This document shows positions 4,426 to 35,737 of a stretch of 64,000 bases of DNA, piece by piece. The notes below the pieces were generated by a model. That model saw nothing but the letters and a program-made list of their open reading frames with translations. It ran no database searches and was not told the DNA's origin. The translations under genes were made by a program, and so were the position numbers. Positions within the stretch are counted from its first letter, which is position 1. Every line of letters begins with the position of its first letter. This DNA comes from Micromonospora echinospora (GTDB lineage: Bacteria; Actinomycetota; Actinomycetes; Mycobacteriales; Micromonosporaceae): NCBI RefSeq assembly GCF_014203425.1, contig NZ_JACHJC010000001.1, forward strand, positions 2,418,001 through 2,482,000. The letters are read 5' to 3'.

Positions 4426-4508
4426 CCCGGCTCACCTCCCCGACCCCGCTTTTCACTCACCGTAGTCGCGGGACCGGGTGCGCCGGACCGGGTCGGCGGA
4501 ACTGGCGG

Positions 4509-14977: not shown

Positions 14978-14987
14978 CCCCCCAATA

Positions 14988-15048
14988 GGTGATCAAGGAG
15001 TTTGTGTCCCGTTCGGACGCCGGCGGTGACACAAACTCCTTGATCACC
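14988..15048. repeat. Perfect 21-base inverted repeat, terminator or REP-like element
   Basis: GGTGATCAAGGAGTTTGTGTC (14988-15008) is exactly repeated in inverse at 15028-15048, with a 19-base loop. It sits between the convergent mannanase and alpha-galactosidase genes, 11 and 15 bases from their stops. It may terminate both messages, although neither arm ends in a T run. The arms are much less GC-rich than the genome, which suggests a repetitive palindromic element. Confidence 0.75.
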
Positions 15049-15063
15049 CGGGGTGGGGCGGGG

Positions 15064-19108: not shown

Positions 19109-19130
19109 GATGTCCTTCCCCCTTCCGCCG

Positions 19131-20462: not shown

Positions 20463-20675
20463 GGTGCCTCCTGCGTGGAAGAGGTGCGCTGCGCTCATGG
20501 ACCGTGATCGTTGGCGGTGAGCGGTGTTCATGTCGGCCGCGGCAGATCCACCGAGAATCCACACGTCCGAACACAAACAGCCGGTGGCGCTTGAAGCTAC
20601 CCCTTGGCGCGGCGCTGTCAAGAGGGCAAAAAGGCGGCACCGTTGCCGGTAAGGCAGGGCAAAGAGCCGGTAATC

Positions 20676-20709
20676 GTTGGAACATCAGTCGATGTTGGAA
20701 AGTGTTGAC
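20676..20709. promoter_or_regulatory. Candidate DeoR-type operator between the importer and beta-galactosidase genes
   Basis: GTTGGAA at 20676-20682 is repeated at 20694-20700, 18 bases apart, with a third related GTTGACT at 20704. The first two also frame an inverted repeat, AACATC (20681-20686) and GATGTT (20691-20696). The site is 35-65 bases before the beta-galactosidase start in the shared 279-base divergent region. The DeoR-family regulator encoded directly after the beta-galactosidase is the natural candidate to bind. I see no other strong signal in this intergenic region. Confidence 0.4.
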
Positions 20710-20741
20710 TTGGGTGCTGTTCGGAGGCAACCTCTGCTGTC

Positions 20742-22754
20742 ATGCGGAACTGGCACGGCGAGGGCATCTGGTACGGCGCCGACTACAACCCGGAGCAGTG
20801 GCCCGAGCAGACGTGGGCCGAGGACGTCGAACTCATGCGACGGGCCGGGGTCAACCTGGTCTCGGTCGGCATCTTCTCCTGGGCGCTGCTGGAACCCGCC
20901 CCCGGCCGGTACGTCTTCGACTGGCTGGACCGGGCGATCGACCTGCTGCACGACGGCGGCATCGGCGTCGACCTGGCCACCGCCACCGCCAGCCCGCCAC
21001 CGTGGCTGGCGCACCGGCACCCGGAGACGCTGCCCCGCCGCGCCGACGGCGCGGTGCTCTGGCCCGGCGGCCGGCAGGCGTACTGCCCCAGTTCGCCGGT
21101 GTTCCGCGACCACTCGCTCGCCCTTGTCGAGGCGGTCGCCCGGCGGTACGCGCGGCACCCCGCCGTCGTGCTCTGGCACGTCTCCAACGAACTCGGCTGC
21201 CACAACGTGCACTGCTACTGCGACGTCAGCGCCGAGGCGTTCCGCGGCTGGCTGCGCGAGCGCTACGGCGACCTGGACTCGCTCAACGCGGCCTGGGGCA
21301 CCGCGTTCTGGAGCCAGCGCTACCACGACTGGGACGAGATCAACCCGCCGCGTACCGCGCCGACGTTCGCCAACCCGACGCAGCAGCTGGACTTCCTGCG
21401 GTTCTCCTCCGACGAGCAGCGCGCCCAGCTGCGCGCCGAGCGGGAACTGCTGAACCGGCTCGTCCCGCAGCCGGTCACCACGAACTTCATGATCGGCACC
21501 GGCATCAAGTACCTGGACTACCACTCCTGGGCCTCCGACGTGGACGTGGTCGCAAACGACCACTACCTCACCGCCGCCGACCCGCAGCCGCACGTCAACC
21601 TCGCGCTGGCCGCCGACCACACCCGGGGCGTCGCGGGCGGCGCGCCGTGGCTGCTGATGGAGCACTCCACCAGCGCCGTCAACTGGCAGCCCCGCAACGT
21701 GGCCAAGACGCCGGGCCAGATGCGCCGCAACAGCCTCGCCCACGTGGCGCGCGGCGCCGACGGGGTGCTGTTCTTCCAGTGGCGGGCCTCCCGGGCCGGC
21801 GCCGAGAAGTTCCACTCCGCGCTGGTCCCGCACGCCGGCCCGGACACCAAGGTGTTCCGCGAGGTCTGCCGGCTCGGCGCCGACCTGCGCGCGCTGGCGG
21901 AGGTACGCGGCAGCCACGTCGACGCCGACGTGGCGATCCTGTTCGACTACGAGGCGTGGTGGGGCGTCGAACTGGACTCCCATCCGAGCGTCGACGTCAC
22001 CTACACCGACCGGTTGTCCGCGCTGCACGGCGCGCTCTGGCGGGCCGGGGTCACCGCCGACGTGGTGCACCCCTCGGCCGACCTGTCCCGCTACCGGCTC
22101 GTCGTGGTGCCCACGCTCTACCTCACCCGCGACGCCGACGCCGACGCGCTGCGCCGGTTCGTGGAGGCCGGCGGCACCGCCCTGGTCACCTACTTCAGCG
22201 GCATCGTCGACGAGCACGACCACATCCGGCTCGGCGGCTACCCCGGCGCGTACCGCGACCTGCTCGGCGTACGCGTCGAGGAGTTCTTCCCGCTGCGGGC
22301 CGGCGAGACGGTACGCCTCGACGACGGCGCCCGCGCCGACGTGTGGACCGAGTGGCTGCACGCCGAGGGCGCCGAGGTGCTCGCCGCGTACGCCGACGGG
22401 CCCCTGCCCGGCGTGCCGGCGCTGACCCGCAACGCCGTCGGCGCGGGTGCCGCCTGGTACGTCGGCACCCGGCTCGACGACGACGCCACCGACCGGCTGG
22501 TGGCCCGGCTGCTCGCCGAGACCGGCGTCCGGCCGCCGGTGGACGCGCCGGCCGGAGTGGAGGTGGTCCGCCGCCGCTCGGCGGCGGACCGGAGCTGGCT
22601 GTTCGTGATCAACCACACCACCGAGCCGGCCCGGCTGCCGGTCACCGGCGTCGAGCTGCTCGGCGGCGCCCGCTGCGACGGCGAGCTGGAGGTGCCGGCG
22701 GGGGAGGTGGCGGTGGTCCGCGAGGAGCCCGCGCCGCCACCCGCGACCGCCTGA
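20742..22754 (+). CDS. Beta-galactosidase, GH42
   Basis: 670-residue cytoplasmic enzyme. The start, GIWYGADYNPEQWPEQTWAEDV, is the GH42 signature. The acid/base Glu150 is in WHVSNELGC and the nucleophile Glu307 in PWLLMEHSTSAVNW. Cys115 with Cys153, Cys158 and Cys160 matches the zinc-binding cluster of thermophilic GH42 enzymes. Trimerisation and C-terminal beta domains follow. It hydrolyses terminal beta-galactosides imported by the neighbouring ABC system. Divergent from the importer operon and 34 bases upstream of its likely DeoR regulator. Confidence 0.95.
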   Translation: MRNWHGEGIWYGADYNPEQWPEQTWAEDVELMRRAGVNLVSVGIFSWALLEPAPGRYVFDWLDRAIDLLHDGGIGVDLATATASPPPWLAHRHPETLPRRADGAVLWPGGRQAYCPSSPVFRDHSLALVEAVARRYARHPAVVLWHVSNELGCHNVHCYCDVSAEAFRGWLRERYGDLDSLNAAWGTAFWSQRYHDWDEINPPRTAPTFANPTQQLDFLRFSSDEQRAQLRAERELLNRLVPQPVTTNFMIGTGIKYLDYHSWASDVDVVANDHYLTAADPQPHVNLALAADHTRGVAGGAPWLLMEHSTSAVNWQPRNVAKTPGQMRRNSLAHVARGADGVLFFQWRASRAGAEKFHSALVPHAGPDTKVFREVCRLGADLRALAEVRGSHVDADVAILFDYEAWWGVELDSHPSVDVTYTDRLSALHGALWRAGVTADVVHPSADLSRYRLVVVPTLYLTRDADADALRRFVEAGGTALVTYFSGIVDEHDHIRLGGYPGAYRDLLGVRVEEFFPLRAGETVRLDDGARADVWTEWLHAEGAEVLAAYADGPLPGVPALTRNAVGAGAAWYVGTRLDDDATDRLVARLLAETGVRPPVDAPAGVEVVRRRSAADRSWLFVINHTTEPARLPVTGVELLGGARCDGELEVPAGEVAVVREEPAPPPATA

Positions 22755-22788
22755 CCGGTACCCCGCCGTGCGCGCCGAGGAGGTTTCC

Positions 22789-23565
22789 ATGCTCGCCCAG
22801 CAACGGCAGAGCGCCATCCTGGAGTTGATCCGCCAGCGTGGTGGCGTCCGGGTCAGTCACCTGGTCAGCCGCTTCGGGGTGTCCGACATGACGATCCGCC
22901 GCGACCTGGAGGTGCTGGCCGACCGCGGCCTGATCGACAAGGTGCACGGCGGCGCGACGCTGGCCGGACCCGGCTCCACGGAGGAGCCCGGCTTCGCCGC
23001 CAAGTCGGTCCGGCAGCAGGCCGAGAAACGCGCCATCGTGGAGCGTGCCGCCGGCCTGGTCGAGCCGGGGATGGCGGTCGCGCTCTCCGCCGGCACCACC
23101 ACCGCCGCGCTGGCCGCCCGGCTGGCCGAGGTACGCGGGCTCACAGTGGTCACCAACTCGATCCCGGTCGCCGACGCGCTCTACCAGAACCCCCGGACCG
23201 ACCAGACCGTCGTGCTGACCGGCGGCATCCGTACCCCCTCGGACGCGCTGACCGGACCGGTCGCCGAGGCGGCGATCGCCGCGCTCAACGTCGACCTGCT
23301 CTTCCTCGGCGTGCACGGGATGAGCCCGCGTACCGGGTTCACCACCCCGAACCTGCTGGAGGCGGCGGTGAACCGGCGGCTCATCGGCGCCGCCCGGCGG
23401 CTGGTGGTGCTCGCCGACCACACCAAGTGGGAGACGATCGGCATCGCCACGATCGCCCCGCTGGAGGAGGCCGACGTGCTCATCACCGACACCGGCCTGT
23501 TGCCGGAGGCGCGCCGGCAACTCGGTGAGCAGGTGGGCGAGCTGGTGGTGGTGCGAGCGGACTGA
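22789..23565 (+). CDS. DeoR/GlpR-family sugar-responsive regulator
   Basis: 258 residues. The N-terminal winged helix (RQSAILELIRQRGGVRVSHLVSRFGVSDMTIRRDLEVLADRG) is typical DeoR. The C-terminal sensor domain resembles isomerase/transferase folds (VALSAGTTTAALAARLA; DLLFLGVHGMSPRTGFT; VVLADHTKWE) and binds sugar phosphates in the family. The ATG at 22789 has GAGGAGG 6 bases upstream and is preferred over an in-frame GTG at 22768. It probably represses the beta-galactosidase and the divergent importer/alpha-galactosidase operon. Confidence 0.92.
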   Translation: MLAQQRQSAILELIRQRGGVRVSHLVSRFGVSDMTIRRDLEVLADRGLIDKVHGGATLAGPGSTEEPGFAAKSVRQQAEKRAIVERAAGLVEPGMAVALSAGTTTAALAARLAEVRGLTVVTNSIPVADALYQNPRTDQTVVLTGGIRTPSDALTGPVAEAAIAALNVDLLFLGVHGMSPRTGFTTPNLLEAAVNRRLIGAARRLVVLADHTKWETIGIATIAPLEEADVLITDTGLLPEARRQLGEQVGELVVVRAD

Positions 23566-23583
23566 CGGCCGGCCCGAGTGTCA

Positions 23584-24156
23584 CTAAACCGACTGAGCGT
23601 CGGCGGGATGATCAATCGCGGACTCGGTCGACGCCGGCCGGCTGCGGAGCACACCGGTGAGCAGATAGATCGAGAGGCCGGTGGCGAGGAGTCCCACCGT
23701 CCAGACGGTGCCCAGGCCGACGACGGCCCCCGCGTGCCGGTGGGTGAACGTCGGCCACAGAGTCCATCCCAGGGCCAGTACGCCGGCGCCCGGAAAGCAG
23801 ATCAGCAGAGGAATGAACCAGTCCAGGACCCGGGCCGGCCGACGATTCGCCTGCGACCAGGCTGCCCAGCCGAGTCCGCCGGGAACCCGTGGCGCGAGTT
23901 CCTCATTGATGTACCTCGTCGTCCAGCGCATTGCCGTCCGCTGTCCCACATATCTCCCGCAGAGCAGGTATGAGCTCAGCGGCACGATCAGCAGTACCGG
24001 TAGCAGGCCCGGGCTCGACAGGGCGAAAGCGACGATTGCGCTCGTCAGCGTCAACTGAAGGGCCAGGATCTGTTGTTGGAACTTCGCCCGCGAATCAATC
24101 TCCGCGCGAAGCGACTGGTACTCTGCCAACGCTCCGTGGACGTCAGAATCGGTCAC
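23584..24156 (-). CDS. Four-helix membrane protein, divergent to the STAS/GHKL/PRTase gene
   Basis: 190 residues from the GTG at 24156 (GAGAGGA upstream). A soluble helix (EYQSLRAEIDSRAKFQQQILALQ) leads into four hydrophobic spans: two near 30-68 and two near 112-165. The loop between the pairs is about 45 residues (RYVGQRTAMRWTTRYINEEL onward). The C-tail is polar. No family is recognised. It shares a 129-base divergent promoter region with the 1565-residue regulator gene and could be its membrane partner or effector, but only position supports this. It is convergent with the DeoR gene, 18 bases away. Confidence 0.7.
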   Translation of the reverse strand: MTDSDVHGALAEYQSLRAEIDSRAKFQQQILALQLTLTSAIVAFALSSPGLLPVLLIVPLSSYLLCGRYVGQRTAMRWTTRYINEELAPRVPGGLGWAAWSQANRRPARVLDWFIPLLICFPGAGVLALGWTLWPTFTHRHAGAVVGLGTVWTVGLLATGLSIYLLTGVLRSRPASTESAIDHPADAQSV

Positions 24157-24176
24157 GCCTTGTCCTCTCGACCGTA

Positions 24177-24221
24177 GTGACCGCCGTACGGTCACCACGC
24201 ACCGTTCACCGACTGGTCACC
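24177..24221. promoter_or_regulatory. Inverted and direct repeats in the divergent promoter of the novel module
   Basis: GTGACCG (24177-24183) and CGGTCAC (24189-24195) form a perfect 7-base inverted repeat with 5 bases between. Related direct repeats follow: GGTCACC at 24190, GTTCACC at 24204 and GGTCACC at 24215. They fill the space between the divergent membrane-protein gene and the large signalling gene, 20-110 bases from either start. A shared operator for both genes is the simplest reading; the regulator is unknown. Confidence 0.45.
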
Positions 24222-24285
24222 GCTTCGATTCATCCCGGTAGTGTGACGGAAAGTCTCCACGCGGGCGATCGAGCGGAGATGAGGC

Positions 24286-27200
24286 ATGATTCTCCTCAAC
24301 TTTGGCACGCGCCTCAATGCCCGGTCCTGGGCGAACGCCCTGAACGTGCGCGCCGATTTTCTCGCCGAGTCCACTCTCTCAGCGGGCAAGTTCGCAGGTC
24401 AGCGCATTGTCGTAGATCTCTCAGAAGTCGGTTTTGCCGATTTCGTGAGCCTGGGCCATCTCCTCATCTTCCTGCGGGCCGCAACCAATGCGGGCGCGCA
24501 GTTCTCGGTGGTCCCGCCCCATCCGGGGGCACTGGCGCACGAGTCTTCCGGTGATGCCGCGTCCGGCTTGCGGAGGCTGGCCCGGCGCAACTGTCAGCTG
24601 TACCTCGAGCAGACCGGCTTCCAGGCCGCCTTCACCGAATTGCGAGGGCGGGTCGATTTCGATTCCTCGCGTGATGCCCGGCTTCTCCCCATCCCCGACA
24701 GTTCGCGGACCTCGGAGGGGGACGAACTCGGGCAACTACCGAAACGGCGTCGGCGTATCCTGCCTTATCGCTGGGTGGCAGTAGAAGACGCCCGCGGCCT
24801 GACCGAGTCGGATGCGGCGTCGCGCTGGGTGGGCGACCTCAAAGACCTGGGCCTGTCCGAGGAACAAGCAGCGGCTTTCGGCACCGGAATCATCGCCGAA
24901 CTGCTGGAGAATGCGGCCGAGCATTCCTCGTTGATGGCCGACGGCCTGGATCGGCCGCAGATCCTCCTCGGTGGGGTGATCGTGCCGCCGGAGACCTACC
25001 AGGACCGTAGCGGGGACCTCGACGAGAGCCTGGGGGACCTGGTGACCACGGCGGCCGCCGTTCCCAGCCCGCTCGTGCGACTGGTCGTCGCGGACGCCGG
25101 TGTCGGCATGATCGGTGAGCTCGTGGTCGGGTCCGATCCCGGTCCGGCGACCGTGCAGCGGGCCATCCTGACCACGTTGGACCGCCGGCAGCCGGCGCGC
25201 ACACCGAACGGGTCGATCGATCACCATGCCCGAGGGCTGTGGAAGGTCGCCCGCCTCGCCCGCGGCTACCAGGGCGGTCTGCTGATCGCGTCGGGCGGTC
25301 AGGTGGTCACCCGGACGTTCGGGAGCCAGCCGAGCCACCAGGACTCGGCTCGGAGCCAGGCCGCAGCCACCGCCGGCACCCTCGTCGAATGCGCCGTGCT
25401 GCTGCACCCGGACGACCGCCGGCTCGGCGCGGAGGAGGTGGCGACACCGCCACGAACCACCGGTCGCGAGGACGGTCGCCCTGACCTGCAATGCGTGATC
25501 GCGTCGCTGCGCCGTCGCCGCGGGCTCACCGGCGCCGACCTGCGCACCGTGCGCCGGGAGTTGAGCCGTCGGCCCACCGCCACCAGCGGTCTGGTCATCG
25601 CGGTCACCACCCCGGACGGCGACGTGCGGCCCGACGACGTCGACATCGGCGCCGCGATCGCCCAGGTCCTGACGGTGGCGAACACCCAGGACGACCTCGG
25701 CATGGTGGTCCTCGCCTTCCCCGGCGTGAATCGGCAGATGATGTCCGTCGCCGTGGAGTTCCTCAACGCCGGCTGCGGGCCCCGGCCCGTCGATGTCCCG
25801 TCCGACCGGCGGTCACCGATCCTGGTGCTCGGCCCGGACAACCGGCACTTCTGGGTGGGCGGCACCGCGACCGGCCGGCAGATCCTCCGCCGCCTGTCCG
25901 GCGCGCAGCGGCCCGTGCACCTGCACGACCTGGCGGACAGTGGCAGCCCGGCCGACGTGCTGCCCGCGATCCGCGAGCTGCAGGACCGGACCGGAGCCCT
26001 GCACGCCGAGCACGACGTGCTCCGCCTGCGGATCAAGCCACAGGACGCGATGAGCGCCCTGGCGAACTACGTCGGCCAGGAACTGCGGACCGCCATCCAG
26101 GACGCCACCTCCGACGGTGTGGTCCAAGGCGTGTTCCTGACCCCGAACCTCAGGGTGACCAACCGCTGGTGCGACCTCGGGCGCGTCCTCGCGGGGCTGG
26201 ATCTCGGCGGCCTGGCCGGCTACGCGCTCGCCGCCCTGATGGAGGATCGCATCGGCCGCTTCGACCGGAAGACGGCGCCGCTCGTGGTCCGGGTCGGCGA
26301 CGCGCCCCACGCGATGGTCGCGGCGTTCGCCCGCTCGTTCACCGGCCACGACCGATACCTCAACTCGCTGGAGGACGTACGGCTGGAGCGAGCCCGCCGA
26401 GGCACGGAGGGCGCGCCCCGGGTGTTGTTGATAACCGACCTCGCGTCCAGCCGCCGGACCCTCAAGCACGCGCTGCTGGAGGTCGTCGACCGCGACATGG
26501 TGCCCGTCGCCGCCGCTGTCGCGGTCGACACCGGCGCGCACGAGGACCCCGGGGAGCCGGGCGAGGTGCTGTTCCTCAACCGCCGGATGCCGATGATCAG
26601 CCTGGCGCAGGTGGACATGAGGGTGGCGGAGCCGCCTCCGCGCACACCGGACCCGATCGACCCGGTGCTGCGCCGGCCCACCACCGGTCACCGCGTCATG
26701 CCGAGGGCGCTGGTCGACCAGGACACGTACGTCTCCGCCATGGAACGGGCGAACGCCGCCCGGCTCGGTCACATCGAACGTCCGGCCGAGCGGCACTACA
26801 CGGCGTACGTGGACCCCACTCGCCTGTTCCGGCAGCGGGACTGGGCCGAGATGGTGACCAGGCACATCACCAGGCGGGTGAAGGAGATGGACCGGGTGGC
26901 CTTCGGCGGCGCCGAGGCTCACGCGCCGGTGTGCGTTCTCTACCCGGAGGGCACTGTCGACGACCTGCCGCAGGTCGCGGCGATCGTCGCCACCGCGCTG
27001 AACCGGGCGGGCGTACCCGTCGTGGCGATGCTGGGCGTTCCCCGGGCCCCGCTCGGCGAGCGGTGGTGGTATCCGGGCTCGGTCAAGCTTCCCGCCGGGG
27101 CGCGGCATGCGGTGATCATCGACGCGGGCGCGGGCAGCACCCGCACGATCGGTCACCTGCAGCGCATTGCCACCAGTGGAGGCATCGCCGCGATCAGCGG

Positions 27201-28983
27201 TTTCCTGCTGCTCAACGGTCTTCCGCACGACGACGCGCTGGTGCTGCACCAGCCCAGCACCATTTCCCGCGCCCGGGGCGGATCCCGGCGGGAGGGAGTT
27301 CCGGTCGCCCTGCACTACGTCGCCCGGACGGCGATGAGCGGACTCGGGCGGTGGTTGTGCGACATCTGCTCGTTGCGCCGGACCTACGACGAGCTCGCCA
27401 TGCTGGTGCCGATTCCGGTCCGGCTGGAAGCGCACCGGAACTGGCTGCTGCGGCTGCTGGAGCCGCGCTCCAAGCGGTCCGCGTTCGAGGAACAGGCCAC
27501 CGACCTCTTCGGCGCCCACGTGGGCCCCAGGGACTGCACCGAGTACCTGCGCTGGCGATTCGAGCTGCGCGAGGCGAACGTGGACACCCTCCAGCGTCGT
27601 GCGGTCACCGTCAAGCTGGAGGCCGCCCGCGAGGAGACGGTGGTCAGGGATGCGCTGATCCGTCTCCTGGTCGCCGAGGCCCACTGGCTGGGTTCGGCGC
27701 CGCTGTGGTTCCCGGAGTGCAGGGACACCATCGCCGAACTGGCGCTTTCGCTGCTGACCAGCGACTCCGCGCGGTCGGACGACGCGATGCTGCGGGTGCA
27801 GGCGGTGATTCTCCTGGCCAAGGTCTCGGTGATCACGTTCGCCGACCAGCTCAGCCGGATCCTGCACGACAACCGGTACGACGAGCCGGTCGTCCTGCAG
27901 GTGATGCTCGAGGCGCTTCGCCTCGTGGCCGCCGTCCGGTCGCCGAACCGGTACTCCCGGGATCTGGTGATCAATCCGATCGTGCAGCGACTCGTGCGGC
28001 TGGAGGACGAACTGCGCGGGTACGGCTCGGACCGCGCCGAGGGGCCGTCCGTGCTGACGCCCAACCTGGTGCGCTATGTCCTCTCACACGGGCAGCGCAC
28101 CGTCGCTCCCGAACCGGCCGACCCGCAGACCGCCTGGGCCGCGCTGCGGGGCAACCGGCGTTCGGTAGCCGACCACGACTACGAGAACGCGATGTGGCGC
28201 GTCATCCAGAACGTCACGCTGGTCGGCCGGGGACGACTGCCCGAGGATCTCGACGGCATCCGGGAGGACTGGGCGGTCTGCAGCAACTTCCTCAATCTCG
28301 ACGTGCTGCCGAACATCTACCTGCTGCGTAACGCGCTGTTGACCCGTGACACCGCGGCGGGCCTGAGCAGGGACGACGCGGACCGCTTCGCGGAGGTGGT
28401 CAACACCGCGTTCGGGCGGAGCGCGGTGGACGAGACCACCGTGCAGCTGGACGCCCTGGTCGACCGGGCGAGGGCCAGCGTCGGACGAGCGCCGCACGAC
28501 GTCGACCAACTGCTCCGCGACCTGCAGTGGTGGCACGACTTCTTTCTTCCGGCCACCGGCGCCGGCATCCATCAGGTGGTCGACCGGTGTCCGACCGACC
28601 TCATGCGGGTCCTGCGCAGCACCTTCCCCGACCATCAGGTGCTGCTTCCGGCCGGCGAACGGCACTTCCAGGTCTTCTGCACCCGACGGCTCGTCAAGGA
28701 CGTGTTCACGCACATCCACATGAATGCCGCCAAGGTGCACCGGGTCGAAGGTGGCGAGCAACGTATCGAGGTCGCCGTCGAGATCCGGGACCCCGGGTTC
28801 GTGACCGTGTCGGTCCGAAACGACAGCAGCCGGCCGTCGCGTCGCGGCGGAGGGCGCGGCCTGAGCTCCCTCAAGGACGAACTCGCCGCCTTCGGCGGGC
28901 GGATCCAGCCGGTCGACCCCCCGGCGGAGTGGGCAACGTTCTGTGTCGAGGTCACGTTCGAGCGGTGGAGGCTGTCGACATGA
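24286..28983 (+). CDS. 1565-residue STAS-like / GHKL / double PRTase-like / GHKL signalling protein
   Basis: Unrecognised as a whole. Residues 1-120 look STAS-like (IVVDLSEVGFADFVSLGHLLIF). Residues 195-375 form a GHKL ATPase with N-box GIIAELLENAAEHS (Glu205, Asn209), DAGVGM (270-275) and HHARGLWKVARL. Two phosphoribosyltransferase-like stretches follow: VLLITDLASSRRTLKHAL (713-730) and AVIIDAGAGSTRTIGHLQ (942-959), both shaped like PRPP-binding loops. Residues about 1110-1250 are helical, HEAT-like. The end (1460-1565) is a second GHKL-like unit (HMNAAKVH; VRNDSS; GGGRGLSSLKDEL). No transmembrane segment or classical DHp histidine box is seen. GAGATGAGG precedes the ATG, and the stop overlaps the response-regulator gene (ATGA). 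Probably a cytoplasmic sensor or switch; output unknown. Confidence 0.8.
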   Translation: MILLNFGTRLNARSWANALNVRADFLAESTLSAGKFAGQRIVVDLSEVGFADFVSLGHLLIFLRAATNAGAQFSVVPPHPGALAHESSGDAASGLRRLARRNCQLYLEQTGFQAAFTELRGRVDFDSSRDARLLPIPDSSRTSEGDELGQLPKRRRRILPYRWVAVEDARGLTESDAASRWVGDLKDLGLSEEQAAAFGTGIIAELLENAAEHSSLMADGLDRPQILLGGVIVPPETYQDRSGDLDESLGDLVTTAAAVPSPLVRLVVADAGVGMIGELVVGSDPGPATVQRAILTTLDRRQPARTPNGSIDHHARGLWKVARLARGYQGGLLIASGGQVVTRTFGSQPSHQDSARSQAAATAGTLVECAVLLHPDDRRLGAEEVATPPRTTGREDGRPDLQCVIASLRRRRGLTGADLRTVRRELSRRPTATSGLVIAVTTPDGDVRPDDVDIGAAIAQVLTVANTQDDLGMVVLAFPGVNRQMMSVAVEFLNAGCGPRPVDVPSDRRSPILVLGPDNRHFWVGGTATGRQILRRLSGAQRPVHLHDLADSGSPADVLPAIRELQDRTGALHAEHDVLRLRIKPQDAMSALANYVGQELRTAIQDATSDGVVQGVFLTPNLRVTNRWCDLGRVLAGLDLGGLAGYALAALMEDRIGRFDRKTAPLVVRVGDAPHAMVAAFARSFTGHDRYLNSLEDVRLERARRGTEGAPRVLLITDLASSRRTLKHALLEVVDRDMVPVAAAVAVDTGAHEDPGEPGEVLFLNRRMPMISLAQVDMRVAEPPPRTPDPIDPVLRRPTTGHRVMPRALVDQDTYVSAMERANAARLGHIERPAERHYTAYVDPTRLFRQRDWAEMVTRHITRRVKEMDRVAFGGAEAHAPVCVLYPEGTVDDLPQVAAIVATALNRAGVPVVAMLGVPRAPLGERWWYPGSVKLPAGARHAVIIDAGAGSTRTIGHLQRIATSGGIAAISGFLLLNGLPHDDALVLHQPSTISRARGGSRREGVPVALHYVARTAMSGLGRWLCDICSLRRTYDELAMLVPIPVRLEAHRNWLLRLLEPRSKRSAFEEQATDLFGAHVGPRDCTEYLRWRFELREANVDTLQRRAVTVKLEAAREETVVRDALIRLLVAEAHWLGSAPLWFPECRDTIAELALSLLTSDSARSDDAMLRVQAVILLAKVSVITFADQLSRILHDNRYDEPVVLQVMLEALRLVAAVRSPNRYSRDLVINPIVQRLVRLEDELRGYGSDRAEGPSVLTPNLVRYVLSHGQRTVAPEPADPQTAWAALRGNRRSVADHDYENAMWRVIQNVTLVGRGRLPEDLDGIREDWAVCSNFLNLDVLPNIYLLRNALLTRDTAAGLSRDDADRFAEVVNTAFGRSAVDETTVQLDALVDRARASVGRAPHDVDQLLRDLQWWHDFFLPATGAGIHQVVDRCPTDLMRVLRSTFPDHQVLLPAGERHFQVFCTRRLVKDVFTHIHMNAAKVHRVEGGEQRIEVAVEIRDPGFVTVSVRNDSSRPSRRGGGRGLSSLKDELAAFGGRIQPVDPPAEWATFCVEVTFERWRLST

Positions 28984-30788
28984 CGCTGGAGATCCGAGGG
29001 CTGCTGGTCGACGACGAAGCCGGCAACACCCCCGTCATCCGCGACTCCATGAACCTGGAGTTCGAGGAGATCGGGATGAAGGTCAGCTGGACAGTCGCCT
29101 CGGACGCGACCTCTGCGCGCAAGACGATCCGGGACGAGCCGACGTTCGAGTTCGCCATCGTCGACTACGGCCTGGGTGAGGGCCAGCAGAACGGCATCGC
29201 GGTCGTGGAGGCGCTGCGGGCGCGGGGCGCGGACACCTACGTCCTCGTCATCACCGGTCTCGGAAACCACTATCCGAACTTCCGGGAGGAGGCGATCAGA
29301 GCCGGCGCGGACGAGGCGGTCATCCGGTCCATCCTCAACATGGGCCGCCAGGGCGGCATGACCTTCCGCGACCTGGCGAACAAGGTTCGTCTGCACGTGG
29401 CCCGCAAGCGTGACTTCGAAGGGCTGAAGGTCACCTTCACCGACGACGATCTCGCGCTGGAATCGACCCTGCACCAGGTCGGCAGCCCGAATCCACCAGG
29501 GGCGGACTCGGTGGCCATCGGCAAGGACATCGTGCGCAGTCTGGCCCTGGACTGCCTCGCCCCCGACTACCGGCCCGGGGCGACGGCGCTCGCCGTCGGC
29601 TACCTGGCGCCGGGGCGGTCCGGCGCGTACGTGTGCCGGGTCGATCATCAAGAGGGGCGGGCCACCACCTCGTACGTCCTGAAGATCGGACTCGACCGGC
29701 GCGCGCTCGAGTTCGAACTCGCGGCCAACAAGAAGGCGTTGCACCTGCTCGGCGCGGGTGACCTCGTCGGCTTCTCCGGTCAGATCCGCAGCCACCAGGA
29801 GTCCGGCTATCACGCCATCGCCGCGCGGCTGGCCACCGGCGCGCACACCCTGGCCGACTGGCTGGACGATGCCACCCAGGAAGAGGCGGAACACGTGGCC
29901 CGCATCCTCTTCGGATCTCAGCTGATCAAGCTGTTCGCCCCCGGGCAGCGAGAGACGAGACCGTTCGACGAATGGCTCGCCGCGACGCCGGTACTGCGCC
30001 TGCGGGTGCTCGACACGCTGACCCTGTACGGCGACATGCTGGCGACCGTGCGGGCGGAGGCAGGCGAGGCGCCCGGCGAACCGGCGGCCTGCGACATCCT
30101 CACCACCTTCGTCAACCAGGGCGTCCTGCCCGGCGGGCTGCGTCCCGAAGGGACCACGACGTACATCGACGCCTTCGGCGACCTGCACTCCACGAACGTC
30201 CTCGTGTATCCCGCCCCGGACAACCGGCCCGTGCTGGTGGACGCCTCCATGTACGGGCCGCACCACTGGGCCACTGACGCGGCCCGGCTGGTGGTGGATC
30301 TCGTCCTTTCCGTGCGGCGGGCGGGGGTGGCCTCGCTGGACTGGGCGGACACGACCGAGGTGTCGGCGTACATTGCCGGCCTGTGCCGGACCGCCAGGTC
30401 CAGACGACACGTCCCGCCGGCCGATTCGGTCGACGCCTTCATCGGTCACGTGGTCGACAACCTGCCGACGTACGTCAACGCGGAGAAGCTGCAGATGACC
30501 AGCGAACAGTGGCACTGGCAGTGGCACGCCGCGTTGGCCAAGGAGTTGATCCGCCAGGGCACCCGGGCCGGACTGCCCGCTCCGCGGGCGGCGGCGGCGC
30601 TGAGCGCCGCGGTGCGGCAGCTGACCTTCGCGGCGGACGCCTTCAGCCGGATCGACTACGCCGGCCGGACCGCTGCCGTACCGCCGCCCGCCTGCGCGGC
30701 GGCCGAGCCAGATGTCACAGTGCCCCGACCGAGAGCAGGCGGGTCCGGCGCCGAGCCGGGAACGGACGCGCAACCCCGACGGTCCTGA
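28980..30788 (+). CDS. Response regulator fused to an APH-like kinase domain
   Basis: 602 residues. Residues 1-125 are a receiver domain with Asp11/Asp12 (LLVDDEAG), the phosphoacceptor Asp62 (FAIVDYGLGEG) and Thr92 (VLVITGLG). The usual conserved Lys is Arg116 or absent. From about 175 a kinase-like fold begins: SGAYVCRV as a nucleotide loop, SYVLKIGLDRR with a candidate ATP-binding Lys, and FELAANKKA. Near 395-425 is a catalytic loop DAFGDLHSTNVLVY (Asp, His, Asn) and then VLVDASMYG with the metal Asp, as in aminoglycoside/choline kinases. The set looks catalytically complete. It is translationally coupled to the 1565-residue gene. It may be a phospho-controlled kinase, possibly of the kinase-like class found in NTP-dependent conflict systems. 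Confidence 0.8.
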   Translation: MTLEIRGLLVDDEAGNTPVIRDSMNLEFEEIGMKVSWTVASDATSARKTIRDEPTFEFAIVDYGLGEGQQNGIAVVEALRARGADTYVLVITGLGNHYPNFREEAIRAGADEAVIRSILNMGRQGGMTFRDLANKVRLHVARKRDFEGLKVTFTDDDLALESTLHQVGSPNPPGADSVAIGKDIVRSLALDCLAPDYRPGATALAVGYLAPGRSGAYVCRVDHQEGRATTSYVLKIGLDRRALEFELAANKKALHLLGAGDLVGFSGQIRSHQESGYHAIAARLATGAHTLADWLDDATQEEAEHVARILFGSQLIKLFAPGQRETRPFDEWLAATPVLRLRVLDTLTLYGDMLATVRAEAGEAPGEPAACDILTTFVNQGVLPGGLRPEGTTTYIDAFGDLHSTNVLVYPAPDNRPVLVDASMYGPHHWATDAARLVVDLVLSVRRAGVASLDWADTTEVSAYIAGLCRTARSRRHVPPADSVDAFIGHVVDNLPTYVNAEKLQMTSEQWHWQWHAALAKELIRQGTRAGLPAPRAAAALSAAVRQLTFAADAFSRIDYAGRTAAVPPPACAAAEPDVTVPRPRAGGSGAEPGTDAQPRRS

Positions 30789-30905
30789 TAGACGTGCCGG
30801 CCTTACCTGGCGCGCCTCACAGGCAGTTCTCAGTCGCGCCATTTAGGGTGCCCTGACGAAGCGTCCGACGGTCCATGTCGGAATGCCGTTCAGCGGGAGT
30901 GACCG

Positions 30906-31892
30906 ATGGTCTTCAAGAAAATGTTGAGCGCGTTCGGCGTGGGTGGCCCGAGCGTCGACACGGTGCTCACCAACCCGAACACCCGGCCCGGACTGACCCT
31001 GGACGGTCACGTCAACCTGGTCGGCGGCGACAGCCCGGCACGGATCGAGCAGATCAACCTCGGCCTGGTCACCCGCGTCGAGATCGAGAGCGGCGACCAC
31101 GACTACGCGGGCGTCATGGAGTTCCACCGGCTGCCCGTCAGCGGTGCGTTCGAGTTGGCGCCGAAGCAGCAGCTGTCGATCCCGTTCCAGATGCCGGTGC
31201 CGTGGGAGACCCCGATCACCGACGTCTACGGCCAGCGGCTGCACGGCATGACCATGGGGCTGCGTACCGAACTGGCGGTGGCCCGCGCGGTCGACAAGTC
31301 CGACCTGGACCAGGTGTCGGTGCACCCGCTGCCGGTCCACGAGCGCATCCTGGAGGCGTTCCAGGCGCTCGGCTTCCGGTTCAAGCACGCCGACCTGGAG
31401 CGGGGCCACATCTACGGCGTGCCGCAGACGCTGCCGTTCTACCAGGAGATCGAGTTCTTCGCCGCGCCGCAGTACGCGCAGACGGTCACCGAGGTCGAGC
31501 TGACGTTCGTGACCAGCCAGCAGGGCGTCGAGGTGATCCTGGAGTGCGACAAGCGGGGCGGCTTCCTCAGCCCCGGGCACGACGTCTTCGGGCGGTACTC
31601 GATCCCGCACACCGACGCCGGCCGTACCGACTGGGTGCAGGTCGTCGACGGCTGGCTGCGGGAGACCACCGGCCGTTACGGCAGCATGCGCGCCCAGGGC
31701 TTCGGCATGCCGCACGGCGGCCACGGCTACCCGGGTCAGCGCGGCTACGCCGGCCACGGGCGCCGCGGCCCGGGCATGGGCGGCGTGGTCGCGGGTGCCG
31801 CGCTGGGCGTCGCCGGCGGCCTGGTCGCCGGTGAGATGCTCGAGGGCGCCTTCGAGGGCGGCGACGACTTCGGGGACTTCGGCGAGGAGTGA
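30906..31892 (+). CDS. spo0M: Spo0M-like sporulation-control protein
   Basis: 328 residues. The first about 250 residues match the Spo0M (arrestin-like) family: MVFKKMLSAFGVGGPSVDTVL, then VEIESGDHDYAGVMEFHRLPV, then PFQMPVPWETPITDVYG. The protein is a cytoplasmic beta-sandwich linked to sporulation control and cell-envelope stress in Gram-positive bacteria. The tail (about 260-328) is Gly/His/Arg-rich and then a hydrophobic glycine stretch (GGVVAGAALGVAGGLVAGEML), ending in an acidic string. GGGAGTGACCG precedes the ATG. A strong hairpin terminator follows. Confidence 0.88.
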   Translation: MVFKKMLSAFGVGGPSVDTVLTNPNTRPGLTLDGHVNLVGGDSPARIEQINLGLVTRVEIESGDHDYAGVMEFHRLPVSGAFELAPKQQLSIPFQMPVPWETPITDVYGQRLHGMTMGLRTELAVARAVDKSDLDQVSVHPLPVHERILEAFQALGFRFKHADLERGHIYGVPQTLPFYQEIEFFAAPQYAQTVTEVELTFVTSQQGVEVILECDKRGGFLSPGHDVFGRYSIPHTDAGRTDWVQVVDGWLRETTGRYGSMRAQGFGMPHGGHGYPGQRGYAGHGRRGPGMGGVVAGAALGVAGGLVAGEMLEGAFEGGDDFGDFGEE

Positions 31893-31903
31893 GCACACGC
31901 GAC

Positions 31904-31933
31904 GACGCCCCCGGGACGGATCCCGGGGGCGTC
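31904..31933. terminator. Bidirectional hairpin terminator between spo0M and a membrane gene
   Basis: GACGCCCCCGGGA (31904-31916) pairs perfectly with TCCCGGGGGCGTC (31921-31933) around a 4-base loop. It lies 11 bases after the spo0M stop and 21 bases from the stop of the convergent membrane gene, so it probably serves both. There is no T run, as is common for actinobacterial terminators. Confidence 0.8.
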
Positions 31934-31953
31934 GCCGTTCACGCGGCGTCCGA

Positions 31954-32328
31954 TCAACGCCCGCGGCGCTCCTTGCCGGAACGGCGCGCGCTGCCCGCCT
32001 TCGACAGGCCACGGCTGACCAGGTACGCGCCGGTCAGCGCGGTCAGGTACCACCAGGCCTGGTTCGGGTTGTTGATGTTCAGGCCGTTGGCGGTGGTGCC
32101 CTTCCAGAACGCGGCGATCACGACGAGCGCGACCGCTGCGGCGTACACCCAGAACTCGGTGGTCAGGAACGCCTGCTTCGTCTCCGTACCCGGAGACGGC
32201 ATCGGCTCCCGGTGACCGTCGTGCATCGACGGCATGTGCCGGGTCGACGTGTCCTGCATGCTCGCCCGGTTCTGGGCGTCGGACATCGGCCGGTTCATCG
32301 GCCTGGTGGATGCAGCCTGCGTGCTCAT
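31954..32328 (-). CDS. Small membrane protein with His/Met-rich N-terminus
   Basis: 124 residues from an ATG with GAGGAGGACC directly upstream. The first 50 residues are polar, with repeated Met, His and Asp (ASMQDTSTRHMPSMHDGHRE). Two membrane helices follow (EFWVYAAAVALVVIAAFW; WWYLTALTGAYLVSRGL), then a basic tail (KAGSARRSGKERRGR). It resembles conserved two-span actinobacterial proteins of unknown role. The Met/His head could bind metal, but this is speculation. Confidence 0.75.
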   Translation of the reverse strand: MSTQAASTRPMNRPMSDAQNRASMQDTSTRHMPSMHDGHREPMPSPGTETKQAFLTTEFWVYAAAVALVVIAAFWKGTTANGLNINNPNQAWWYLTALTGAYLVSRGLSKAGSARRSGKERRGR

Positions 32329-32603
32329 CTGGTCCTCCTCAAGGATTTGATGAGTCGTTAACCTGCACACCCTCGCCCCGCTACCGCAGGTCGGCCACGG
32401 CGCGGTTCGCGCTCTGTGGCGGGGGCACCCTGGGTCTACCCGGGCCCGGAGACAAGCTAACCGCCGGTCGTCATCTGATGGCCGCCACGCTCCCGAACCG
32501 GACATCCGGGCACGCACCCGGCCCCCGCCGCCGGCTCCGGTTTCAGCCACCCGCCGTCGGGCACGCAACACCGATACCCCGAGAGAGCTGCGAGGTGGTT
32601 GAC

Positions 32604-33026
32604 GTGCGTGAGGACGACATGCGGCAGGACGCCGCCCGGCGGGCCGAGCAGCGGGTCGCCGGCGGCGTGTACGGCGAGGGCGCGCTGGACGAGGTCACGG
32701 TGCCGCAGACCGACGTGGAGCGGATGCGCCAGGAACTCGACCCGGACGACCCGGCGGACGTACCCGTCGACCCGACGGTGCTGCGCGACGGCGGACCGAC
32801 CCGGGGCCAGGGCGCGGTGACCACGACCGGTGGCACGGCCGGCCCGGCCAGTGTGCGCCGGGTGGCCCGGCAGCCGGAGAAGCACCCGGGCAAGGTGGCG
32901 CCGACGACCACCGGGGACGCCGGCACGGGTGGCCTGAGCACCCCGGCGGGCGGCTCCACGAGCGACAACTCGGCCACCGGCGCCCAGGTGGGCAACTTCA
33001 CCAACAACCGCCCCAACCCAGGCTGA
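32604..33026 (+). CDS. Hypothetical hydrophilic protein
   Basis: About 140 residues from the GTG at 32604, which has GAGG 8 bases upstream. A GTG at 32595 and an ATG at 32619 are also possible. The N-terminal half is charged (MRQDAARRAEQRVAGGVYGEGAL; DVERMRQELDPDDPADVPVDP). The C-terminal half is Gly/Thr/Asn-rich and probably unstructured (TTTGDAGTGGLSTPAGGSTSD). No domain is recognised. It is followed by a perfect terminator hairpin, and codon use fits a real gene. Confidence 0.65.
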   Translation: MREDDMRQDAARRAEQRVAGGVYGEGALDEVTVPQTDVERMRQELDPDDPADVPVDPTVLRDGGPTRGQGAVTTTGGTAGPASVRRVARQPEKHPGKVAPTTTGDAGTGGLSTPAGGSTSDNSATGAQVGNFTNNRPNPG

Positions 33027-33040
33027 CCGGAGGCGGCACG

Positions 33041-33077
33041 GCACGGCGGGGGCGGCCTTCGGCCGCCCCCGCCGTGC
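33041..33077 (+). terminator. Strong hairpin terminator
   Basis: GCACGGCGGGGGCGGCC (33041-33057) and GGCCGCCCCCGCCGTGC (33061-33077) form a perfect 17-base stem with a TTC loop, 15 bases after the stop of the hypothetical gene. Confidence 0.85.
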
Positions 33078-33442: not shown

Positions 33443-35737
33443 TTAGGGGGTGCGGAGGATGCCCAGGCGCTGGGTGGCTCTTGTCAGAGCCACGTAGAGG
33501 TCGCTGTGACCTCGTGGGGACTCGGACACGATGCGGGCCGGGTCGACCACCAGCACCGAGTCGAACTCCAGGCCCTTGGCCTGCTCGGTGGTCAGCACCA
33601 CCACCCGGTTCGCCAGCTCGGGCTGTTCGCCCACTGTCGCCTCCGGCAGCGCCGCCACGACCGCGCCGCCCAGCTCGCTCACCCGCCCGGTCGGCACCAG
33701 CACGCCGAGCCGCCCGTCACCGAGCGACGTGGCCTCCCGGGCGGTGGCCTCGACCAGCTCGGTCACGAGCCGGTCCGCCGGTACGGTCCGGTCCCAGGGC
33801 GGTACGCCGGTGGCGCGTACCGAGCGGGGTGGCCGCAGCGCCGGGTCGATCTCGGCCAGCACGTCGGCGGCGACGGCCATGATCTCGGCCGGGGTGCGGT
33901 AGCTGACGGTCAGCTCCTCCAGCCGCCACCGGTCCGCCACGTACGGCGCCAGCGCCTCGCCCCACGAGGGCGTGCCCGCGAGCGCGCCGGTCTGTGCCAC
34001 GTCCCCGACGATCGTCATGGACCGGCTGGGGCAGCGGCGCATCAGCAGCCGCCACGCCATGGGCGACAGCTCCTGCGCCTCGTCCACGATCACGTGCCCG
34101 AACGCCCAGGTGCGGTCGGCGGCGGCCCGCTGAGCGGTGGTGAGCCGGTCGGACTCCTCCTGCCGCTCGGAGAGCCGGTCGGCGTCGATCAGGTCGGTCA
34201 CGCCGAGGATCTCACCGCCGTCGGCTTCGTCCTCCACGTCGATGGAGCGGGAGCCGCGCCAGATCTCCAGCACGCCCTCGGCGTACTCGCGTTCCATCGC
34301 CCGGATGCGTTCCCGGCGCGCCACGGCGGCGCGCTCGTCCTCGCCGAGCAGTTCGGCGGCCTCGTCCAGCAGCGGCACGTCGGCGGGCGTCCACCCGCCG
34401 GGCTCGCGGTGCAGCGCGGCCCGCTCGGCGTCGGTGAGCATCGGCGCGGCGGCGGCGATCCGCTCCGGCGAGGCGTACAGGTCGGCGAGCAGGCGTTGCG
34501 GGGTGAGCACCGGCCACAGCTCGTCCAGCGCGGCCCCGATCTCCGGTTCCTCGCGCAGTTCGCGGCGGATCTCCGCGCGGTCGGCCTCGGAGAGCAGGTT
34601 CTCCCCGCCCAGCGGGTCGGCGCCGATCCGCTCGGCCACCTGGTCGGCGAGCGCGTGCACGATCTCCACGTCGAACAGGGCGCGGGCCAGGTTGTGCGGG
34701 CGGCCGGTACGGCGTACCCGGTCGCGGGCCTGGCGCACGGTCTCCGGGTCGAGCGTCAGCAGCTCCCGCTGCGGCAGTTCGATGGTGACCGGCTCGTCCG
34801 GCACCCACTGCCGGTCGCGGACGGCCGCGGCGAGCACGTCGGCGAGCACCGCGCGGCCTTTGAGCGCCGCGGTGGTGGCCGGCTCCGCGCGGCGGGCGTG
34901 CACGCCGGGGAACAGGTCGGCCTGGGTACGCAGCAGCACGCCGGTCTCGGCCAGCGTGGGCAGCACCTGGGAGATGTAGCGCAGGAACGTGGCGTTCGGG
35001 CCGACCAGCAGCACACCGCGGGTGGAGAGCTGCTGGCGGTGGGTGTAGAGCAGGTATGCGGCCCGGTGCAGCGCCACAGCGGTCTTGCCGGTGCCCGGCC
35101 CGCCCTGCACCACCATCACGCCGGGCAGGTCGGCGCGGATGATCCGGTCCTGCTCGGCCTGGATGGTCTCGACGATGTCGCGCATCCGGCCGGTACGCCC
35201 GGCGTTGAGCGCGGCGAGCAGCGACGCCTCGCCGGTCAGCTCCTCGTGGGCGGTGGGGGAGGCGGCGGCGATGTCCAGCACCTCGTCGTTGAGCCCGGTC
35301 ACCTTCCGGTCGCGGGTGCGCAGGTGACGGCGGCGGCGTACGCCCTGCGGGTTGGCGGCGGTGGCCAGGTAGAACGGCCGGGCGGCCGGGGCGCGCCAGT
35401 CCATCAGCAGCGGGTCGTAGTCGCCGGAGGAGTCGAAGATCCCGATCCGGCCGATGTAGCGGGCCGCGCCGTCGTCGCCGTCGAGGCGGCCGAAGCAGAG
35501 ACCGCTCTCCACGGCGGAGAACTGCTCGACCTGGTCGGCGTACATCGCGACTGTCGAGTCGCGCTGCGAGCGGGCCTGCTGCGTGCCGCCGGTGTGGCGC
35601 AACTCCTCGTCGAGCCGCCGGGCGGCCTGTTCCCGCATGCCGTCCAGCCGGTCGTACAGCATCGAGACGTATTCCTGCTCGCGGCCGATCTCGTCGTCCT
35701 GGCGCAGGTCAGCCGACACGTCGGAGTGCGTTGACAA
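33443..35737 (-). CDS. helD: HelD-family RNA-polymerase-recycling ATPase
   Basis: 764-residue superfamily-1 (UvrD-like) motor. The N-terminal arm is a coiled coil (EIGREQEYVSMLYDRLDGMREQAARRLDEEL) that in HelD enters the RNA polymerase secondary channel. YIGRIGIFDSSGDYDPLLMDWRAPAARPFY and the Walker A GGPGTGKTAVALHRAAY (about 212) follow, then HVIVDEAQELSPMAWRLL (Walker B) and VVLTTEQAKGLEFDSVLVVDP. Length and order match the actinobacterial class II HelD, which strips stalled polymerase from DNA and in some species protects it from rifamycins. The start is TTG with GAGGAG upstream. An AT-rich leader with a hairpin precedes it. Confidence 0.92.
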   Translation of the reverse strand: MSTHSDVSADLRQDDEIGREQEYVSMLYDRLDGMREQAARRLDEELRHTGGTQQARSQRDSTVAMYADQVEQFSAVESGLCFGRLDGDDGAARYIGRIGIFDSSGDYDPLLMDWRAPAARPFYLATAANPQGVRRRRHLRTRDRKVTGLNDEVLDIAAASPTAHEELTGEASLLAALNAGRTGRMRDIVETIQAEQDRIIRADLPGVMVVQGGPGTGKTAVALHRAAYLLYTHRQQLSTRGVLLVGPNATFLRYISQVLPTLAETGVLLRTQADLFPGVHARRAEPATTAALKGRAVLADVLAAAVRDRQWVPDEPVTIELPQRELLTLDPETVRQARDRVRRTGRPHNLARALFDVEIVHALADQVAERIGADPLGGENLLSEADRAEIRRELREEPEIGAALDELWPVLTPQRLLADLYASPERIAAAAPMLTDAERAALHREPGGWTPADVPLLDEAAELLGEDERAAVARRERIRAMEREYAEGVLEIWRGSRSIDVEDEADGGEILGVTDLIDADRLSERQEESDRLTTAQRAAADRTWAFGHVIVDEAQELSPMAWRLLMRRCPSRSMTIVGDVAQTGALAGTPSWGEALAPYVADRWRLEELTVSYRTPAEIMAVAADVLAEIDPALRPPRSVRATGVPPWDRTVPADRLVTELVEATAREATSLGDGRLGVLVPTGRVSELGGAVVAALPEATVGEQPELANRVVVLTTEQAKGLEFDSVLVVDPARIVSESPRGHSDLYVALTRATQRLGILRTP

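Follow-up and report, generated by a model that had tools for sequence, protein, structure and literature searches.

A three-gene cassette in Micromonospora echinospora that may link a probable cytoplasmic histidine kinase to a receiver-kinase fusion

Introduction

The locus described here raises the question of what is achieved by a bacterial protein in which a STAS-like start, two GHKL-type ATP sites and two phosphoribosyltransferase (PRTase)-like segments come together, and which is encoded directly ahead of a receiver domain fused to an aminoglycoside phosphotransferase (APH)-like kinase. It lies within 64,000 nucleotides of the Micromonospora echinospora genome (contig NZ_JACHJC010000001.1, positions 2,418,001 to 2,482,000; this whole stretch is the window, and coordinates refer to it). 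An original prediction, made from the letters of the sequence, had described the two genes, here A and B, as a two-gene module; both are real genes, but a third gene, C, had been missed, and gene C together with an empty site in a close relative defines a three-gene unit, so that the two-gene version is rejected.

Our best reading is that C-A-B is a self-contained signaling cassette, gained and lost in one piece. More tentatively, with confidence falling just short of even, we regard it as a soluble two-component cassette that senses the state of nucleotides or DNA, has a kinase as its output and acts as a stress or conflict switch. A would be a cytoplasmic histidine kinase whose N-terminal two thirds form the sensor part, where the STAS-GHKL region, an alpha/beta domain, two PRTase folds and a CxxC motif would read 5-phosphoribosyl-1-pyrophosphate (PRPP), other nucleotides or damaged DNA. 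The C-terminal module would autophosphorylate on H1297, the phosphate would pass from there to D62 of B, and the phosphorylated receiver would switch the APH-like kinase, the presumed output enzyme, with C acting at the membrane as partner or effector; for such a circuit, that of an inducible stress or conflict switch (anti-phage or growth-arrest) would be the most likely role. The gene content, the limits of the unit, the PRTase and CA (catalytic and ATP-binding) folds, the receiver, the kept kinase residues and the joint inheritance are results of the computation; the function of the helices around H1297, the phosphotransfer, the ligand, the substrate of the kinase, the part played by C and a role in defense are inferred.

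Gene content and boundaries

The cassette and its genes are as follows.

23567..30808, no strand assigned: whole cassette C-A-B, about 7.2 kb, missing as a single piece in the close relative L127
23584..24156, minus strand: gene C, membrane protein (hydropathy peaks), 190 residues from its conserved start, divergent from A
24286..28983, plus strand: gene A, a probable soluble histidine kinase of 1565 residues and several domains
28980..30788, plus strand: gene B, 602 residues, receiver plus APH-like kinase

By blastn, locus L127 (genome G417) joins window positions 23566 and 30809 with 5 bp between them, its flanks being 95.7% identical to 16302-23566 and 92.1% identical to 30809-33075; presence or absence hence concerns C-A-B as a unit. 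The two open reading frames originally predicted, and their overlap through ATGA, were borne out in the window, and at all 11 loci that carry the pair the stop of A and an in-frame start of B share a four-base overlap (ATGA in 9, GTGA in 2). In the window the start of B is placed at the conserved ATG at 28980, downstream of the point where the mechanically called reading frame begins. That A and B are real genes follows from the existence of 11 full-length A homologues (the one in the window included) and from a ratio of nonsynonymous to synonymous substitution rates of about 0.20, for A and for B alike, between the window and L009. The A proteins span pairwise identities from 99% down to 21%, and down to 23% relative to that of the window.

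The two genes are inherited together. Their distance matrices correlate with r 0.9956, a value reached by 0 of 9999 permutations, and co-occurrence, which had been proposed at the outset as a test of the pair, was found in that full-length B occurs in the same 11 family genomes as full-length A. Gene C, whose small product has a number of hydrophobic stretches, adjoins A in nine of the 11 loci according to reciprocal comparison of open reading frames around the A-B pairs, divergently in eight and co-directionally in L042; the copy in the window is the sole match within its own genome. Searches of C against Pfam gave no convincing match (best, a phage-holin family, E 0.007, below its cut-off), and PADLOC returned zero matches for it.

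The predicted phosphorelay pair

The features on which a transfer of phosphate from A to B would depend are these.

27418..28155, plus strand: all-helical scaffold of A (model; predicted local distance difference test score, pLDDT, 52 to 94 in ten-residue blocks, most above 75)
28123..28485, plus strand: dimerization and histidine phosphotransfer (DHp)-like helical region of A, with H1297-D1298 at 28174-28179 (conservation, model, Foldseek)
28600..28968, plus strand: catalytic and ATP-binding (CA) domain of a histidine kinase, in A (sub-threshold HATPase_c, DesK profile, Foldseek match to MprB)
28980..29369, plus strand: receiver domain of B, with D11, D12, D62, T92 and R116 (Pfam, PDB matches, conservation)
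29427..30614, plus strand: APH-like kinase of B, with GDLHSTN at 30177-30197 (sub-threshold TCAD9, conserved catalytic residues)

The model of A residues 1036-1565 (mean pLDDT 80.7, predicted template modeling score, pTM, 0.58) retrieved 27 PDB matches at E <= 0.001 with Foldseek, whose titles name histidine kinases or light sensors constructed from these (4gcz we take to be one of the latter), the best being an MprB chain of 149 residues at E 5.2e-5 and 4.6 Å. At the level of sequence the same region matches HATPase_c at E 0.0033, below the Pfam cut-off, and DesK weakly by profile (E 0.15), and in its boxes N1480 and G1525 are present in 10/11 A proteins and G1523 in 9/11, with Asn1512 where the G1 box usually has Asp. 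Ahead of it stands H1297, a His in 10 of the 11 proteins and directly followed by Asp in nine, the His of L092 sitting a column further on; since a conserved His thus precedes a CA domain matched by Foldseek, the second GHKL site most likely belongs to a histidine kinase as its CA domain. The helices around H1297 likely act as the DHp domain, an assignment less firm than that of the CA domain, and the earlier statement that A has no classical DHp histidine is probably wrong. Hydropathy of the window's A shows zero peaks at or above 1.8, against two in that of L092 (1.84 and 2.05).

The predicted fusion of a receiver to an APH-like kinase in B likewise stands. The receiver scores 33.6 bits in Pfam as a slice and 29.8 within the whole protein, against a cut-off of 30.2; its PDB matches at E <= 1 number 86, and most of the 60 listed are response regulators; in its acidic pocket and phosphoacceptor site D11 is kept in 11/11, D62 in 10/11 and D12 in 8/11. 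The kinase residues K235, E246, D401, H403, N406 and D421 are all retained in 11/11 and the enzyme therefore looks active, as far as its residues can tell. B falls under the cut-off of 40 for Pfam TCAD9 (PF19974), with 36.2 bits for the whole protein and 37.4 for the slice; a TCAD9 scan of 61 family genomes gave matches in 52, most of them short and lying around profile positions 260-340, with only three above the cut-off, and was judged uninformative. A PADLOC match of B to RdrB (E 0.028) was attributed to chance. Phospho-signaling had been put forward as the likely logic of the locus, and we share that view; that A hands phosphate to B we consider somewhat probable.

The putative sensor part of A

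Ahead of this module, A carries the following segments, all on the plus strand.

24286..24645, plus strand: STAS-like domain, about residues 1-120 (STAS_2, model, conserved F53)
24748..25410, plus strand: GHKL-1, about residues 155-375, with N-box ELLEN, DxGxG and RGLW (motifs and model secondary structure only)
25483..25995, plus strand: alpha/beta domain, about residues 400-570, between GHKL-1 and PRTase-1 (model secondary structure)
26008..26685, plus strand: PRTase-1, about residues 575-800, loop VLLITDLASSRRT (profile matches and Foldseek)
26743..27330, plus strand: PRTase-2, about residues 820-1015, LGHIER motif, loop HAVIIDAGAGSTRT (conserved residues, strand-helix order in the model)
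27358..27369, plus strand: CxxC, C1025 and C1028 (invariant, 11/11)

A PRTase fold in A is supported both by profile comparison, in which residues 400-820 match PyrR (E 1e-4) and HPRT (E 6e-4), and by structure prediction, which had been named in advance as the test of the PRTase and GHKL assignments and which returned, through Foldseek, both PRTase and C-terminal CA folds. The AlphaFold2 model of residues 1-1046, built from 11 sequences (mean pLDDT 72.5, pTM 0.67), gave 13 PDB matches at E <= 0.001, namely nine orotate PRTase or OMP synthase chains, one UMP synthase, one PurR and two of HP1257, in a listing that leaves open which of the two PRTase segments aligned; HP1257 is titled hypothetical, and we take it to be an orotate PRTase. 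The PurR structures among the Foldseek matches are titled with cPRPP (1p4a) and with ppGpp (7rmw); in PurR the PRTase fold thus binds these ligands and has a sensory use. In PRTase-2, H829, R832, H837, D946, G948 and T954 are kept in 11/11, the model shows the strand-helix order of a PRTase, and the profile matches PRPP synthetase weakly (E 1.4). Both of the predicted PRPP-loop-like segments were thus recovered, PRTase-1 by profile and Foldseek, PRTase-2 by motif and model. An internal duplication is rejected as showing no sign in hhalign, which aligned the two segments (slices A6 and A7) only over the stretch common to both slices, about residues 800-820. Within PRTase-2, residues 872-929 or so (26899-27072) have a sub-threshold similarity to DUF4192 (E 2.3e-4), a family that could itself be a PRTase relative.

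It might be asked whether these domains act as catalysts, producing a metabolite of nucleoside type or a second messenger, which the kinase of B would phosphorylate or by which it would be driven. The invariance of the PRPP-loop Asp and Thr of PRTase-2 and the pairing with a kinase fold of small-molecule type speak in its favor; yet each loop of A carries one Asp where an acidic pair is usual, no base-binding partner has been identified, and regulatory PRTase folds also retain the PRPP loop, so that we find this explanation quite unlikely. A sensory use of the PRTase folds remains the reading that we prefer.

The STAS-like start that had been predicted for A is seen in a Pfam STAS_2 match of the slice at E 3e-5, below the family cut-off. 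F53 is invariant (11/11), position 54 is Val, Gly or Thr and the usual phosphosite is without Ser; the canonical STAS phosphosite motif is DSSG, against which, by our reading, the phospho-serine appears to be replaced. The two GHKL-type sites of the earlier description also stand, the second by HATPase_c and Foldseek as described and the first, GHKL-1, by motifs and model secondary structure, since a GHKL structure was found neither by profile search nor among the 50 best Foldseek matches listed; E205, E208, N209, G272, G274 and G317 are present in 11/11 and D270 in 10/11. Kinship of GHKL-1 with the C-terminal CA domain was discarded (hhalign probability 2%), and matches to designed helical proteins, obtained with profiles A8 and A10, were ascribed to chance. 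For the alpha/beta domain no search yielded a family name.

Distribution and genomic context

Searched with a profile built from five A proteins, 354 Micromonosporaceae genomes yield full-length A in 11, that of the window included, and a profile of the 11 B proteins matches 12 of 350 family genomes, the full-length matches being in the same 11. The twelfth (G631) is a fragment covering profile positions 412-561, and at about 3900-4750 of its 12-kb locus, L135, pieces of C and B lie directly against each other and nothing matches A: the C piece runs from residue 61 (L089 numbering) and is up to 95% identical to that of L088, and the B piece runs from about window residue 417 and is 95% identical to that of L043. 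The arrangement reads as a deletion scar of the cassette. A wide presence in the phylum is rejected, because profile A1 matched three of 396 genomes (full-length at its own locus only, the other two being CA fragments), a single A protein matched six of 296 (its own alone full-length), and the STAS-GHKL profile A10 matched three of 198 (its own locus and two one-domain pieces).

The 11 loci represent eight flanking contexts when flanks are compared over about 1-10 kb and when the three loci at the spo0M site, as well as L043 and L088 (which have only the left flank in common), are each counted as one. The cassette adjoins spo0M in those three loci. The gene itself is present in 41/41 genus genomes searched, of which just four are among the 11 carriers. 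Thirty loci at this site were examined from the 41 genomes, and among the 29 besides our own, nine are free of the cassette, their two flanks meeting within 235 bp, two (L103, L104) carry it, and the other 18 have a left flank that is different or unmatched at the junction. One of these 18, L106 (G635), has about 1.4 kb of other DNA between the left flank and spo0M, from which it appears that different inserts may also enter this site.

About 1.2 kb from C in L042, a protein at 14630-18808 (minus strand) with NO VEIN C-terminal and sacsin-like domains gives a full-length PADLOC match to TmtA. Because of this match, the patchiness, the discrete presence and absence, the scar and the several contexts, a defense role is plausible; a conflict or abortive function is possible, though we lean slightly against it. 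Its most elaborate form would be an anti-phage or abortive gate with two inputs, in which the STAS-GHKL region, acting like CapK or VapK, senses single-stranded DNA (ssDNA) and the tandem PRTase folds sense PRPP or (p)ppGpp, the two jointly licensing the histidine kinase whose phosphate activates a growth-arresting receiver-APH-like kinase, with C as anchor or second effector; so specific a scheme we hold to be unlikely.

Two further observations concern the surroundings. The window's genome is 7.13 Mb on a single contig, and this 7.1-Mb genome contains 15 NB-ARC matches at E <= 0.001. At 33443-35737 of the window (minus strand) lies a large UvrD/AAA helicase-like protein with partial matches to defense helicase models, in which a wide gap separates an N-terminal motif from the rest of the core.

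Discussion

Several observations weigh against C-A-B being a soluble two-component cassette with a stress or conflict role, and are best considered together. H1297 lies in the model at a break between two helices; the best Foldseek match, MprB 6blk (149-158 residues), covers only about 155-160 columns at 4-5.5 Å, and longer DHp-CA kinases, aligned to A across some 200-300 columns, mostly deviate by 14-25 Å. In the G1 box of the CA domain Asn1512 (10/11) replaces the usual Asp, and in the receiver the usual Lys is absent, its place being taken by Arg116 in 10/11 and by Trp in L092; phosphotransfer may therefore be weak or absent. On the sensor side, the target-normalized TM-scores of the PRTase matches are low (0.25-0.66 among the 13 best), and PRTase-2 draws its support from motif and model. 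C is not beside A in two of the 11 loci, those of the divergent pair L044 and L092, where only the neighborhood was searched. Residues of the relay are dispensable in one lineage, L092. No match came from 72,556 plasmid records or from two scans of viral contigs, and residues 1-400 of A gave two chance-level plasmid matches only, so that spread by plasmids or viruses is rejected as far as these record sets go. By Pfam, the window neighbors look like sugar-use genes (melibiase, ABC permease, solute-binding protein, beta-galactosidase, DeoR regulator) together with Spo0M, a helicase-like protein, a TPR protein and two unnamed ones. Among 20 chosen neighbors submitted to PADLOC, 15 had no match and TmtA in L042 was the sole strong one, the others being two weak TPR matches, one weak PDC-M05A and one partial helicase.

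The lineage L092 (G548) bears on whether there is a phosphorelay at all. In its A protein a gap takes the place of the CA N-box Asn, and N1512 has changed to T, G1523 to A and G1525 to T, with the HD pair reading RHTE; its B protein carries D62 to N, T92 to R and R116 to W. The tabulated GHKL-1, PRTase, CxxC and kinase residues are kept, as are the STAS-GHKL residues of A. One could hence propose that the core consists of STAS-GHKL-PRTase and the APH-like kinase, the C-terminal module and the receiver being a docking or scaffold pair, and the Asn and Arg replacements, as well as the uncertain DHp assignment, would fit such a scheme. However, H1297, N1480, D62 and T92 are retained in 10/11 members, and both sides have decayed together in L092, pointing to a joint function before the loss; we accordingly think a pure docking pair improbable. 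The nearest relative, L044 (35% identical in A), has kept both the CA and the receiver sides. Under the phosphorelay reading, joint decay of donor and acceptor is what would be expected of a dedicated pair, and it suggests that the core can still give its output once the relay is lost, although this decay is a single lineage to which no statistic attaches.

A further possibility is that the locus encodes an ordinary, non-conflict two-component system, which would read PRPP or ppGpp to adjust metabolism or development, its APH-like kinase acting on a metabolite. PyrR and PurR, whose folds were matched here, use PRTase folds for metabolic control, the cassette stands beside spo0M in three loci, A and B are under purifying selection, and most window neighbors are not defense-like. 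Against this, the system occurs in just 11 of the 354 family genomes, shows clean presence or absence among close relatives, eight contexts and a whole-system deletion scar, and is carried by only four of the 41 genus genomes that have spo0M. Purely metabolic control therefore seems rather unlikely to us, and an inducible switch remains the role that we tentatively favor.

Comparison with known systems

The closest mechanisms are CapK/VapK and Detocs, and the cassette is a member of neither. Searches with PADLOC gave no match for A and only the RdrB match for B, and literature searches gave no match to the combination of domains among the matches listed, in a coverage that leaves out most subscription papers; two-component logic is known, and the sensor half of A together with the effector of B is a combination that we have not met before.

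CapK is an ssDNA-activated STAS-GHKL kinase of bacterial immunity and VapK another for which ssDNA activation is predicted, W68 of CapK or F54 of VapK being needed at the predicted ssDNA site (PMC13373217). Like these kinases, A begins with a STAS and then a GHKL part, as judged from the sub-threshold STAS_2 match, motifs and model secondary structure rather than by direct sequence comparison, and its STAS lacks the usual phospho-serine. The invariant aromatic F53 of A may be set beside W68 and F54 as a lead only, the sequences not being aligned. In contrast to CapK/CapS and VapKSC, the cassette consists of C, A and B only, a gene of its own for a STAS substrate (CapS or VapS) being absent, and A, unlike CapK and VapK, continues into PRTases and a histidine-kinase module.

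Detocs is a small operon that combines a histidine kinase with a receiver-effector enzyme fusion, and in these points the cassette resembles it; a TPR-kinase and a stand-alone receiver are also characteristic of Detocs. It is described as a defensive two-component system with a PNP effector (PMC11249213, PMC10952713). The cassette, by contrast, has neither a stand-alone receiver nor a PNP effector, and has instead an APH-like kinase and a membrane protein, in addition to the PRTase and STAS-GHKL parts of A.

APH-like kinase and receiver domains are among the effectors of ternary conflict systems, and no histidine kinase was found among vWA-associated effectors, according to PMC7159879, from whose main text the name TCAD is absent. 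The kinase of B is nearest to Pfam family TCAD9 (PF19974), yet below its cut-off, and, unlike the NTP-dependent ternary conflict systems, the cassette contains no vWA or MoxR gene.

With PyrR, PurR, orotate PRTase and HPRT, central A has in common the type I PRTase fold and the position of the PRPP loop; it differs from them in holding two PRTase-like segments within one kinase-like protein and in the changed acid pair of the loop. With MprB, HK853 and DesK, its C-terminus shares a CA fold preceded by a conserved His that is mostly followed by Asp; it differs in that the A protein of the window has no membrane segment, in the Asn of the G1 box and in the roughly 180 residues that separate the His from the N-box Asn.

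If the reading proposed here is true, histidine kinases in which PRTase folds do the reading of nucleotide pools would widen what two-component signaling is known for, as would a receiver that switches a kinase of small-molecule type rather than transcription; and if the role in defense is also true, the STAS-GHKL branch of immunity (CapK/VapK) and the two-component branch (Detocs) would be joined in one protein.

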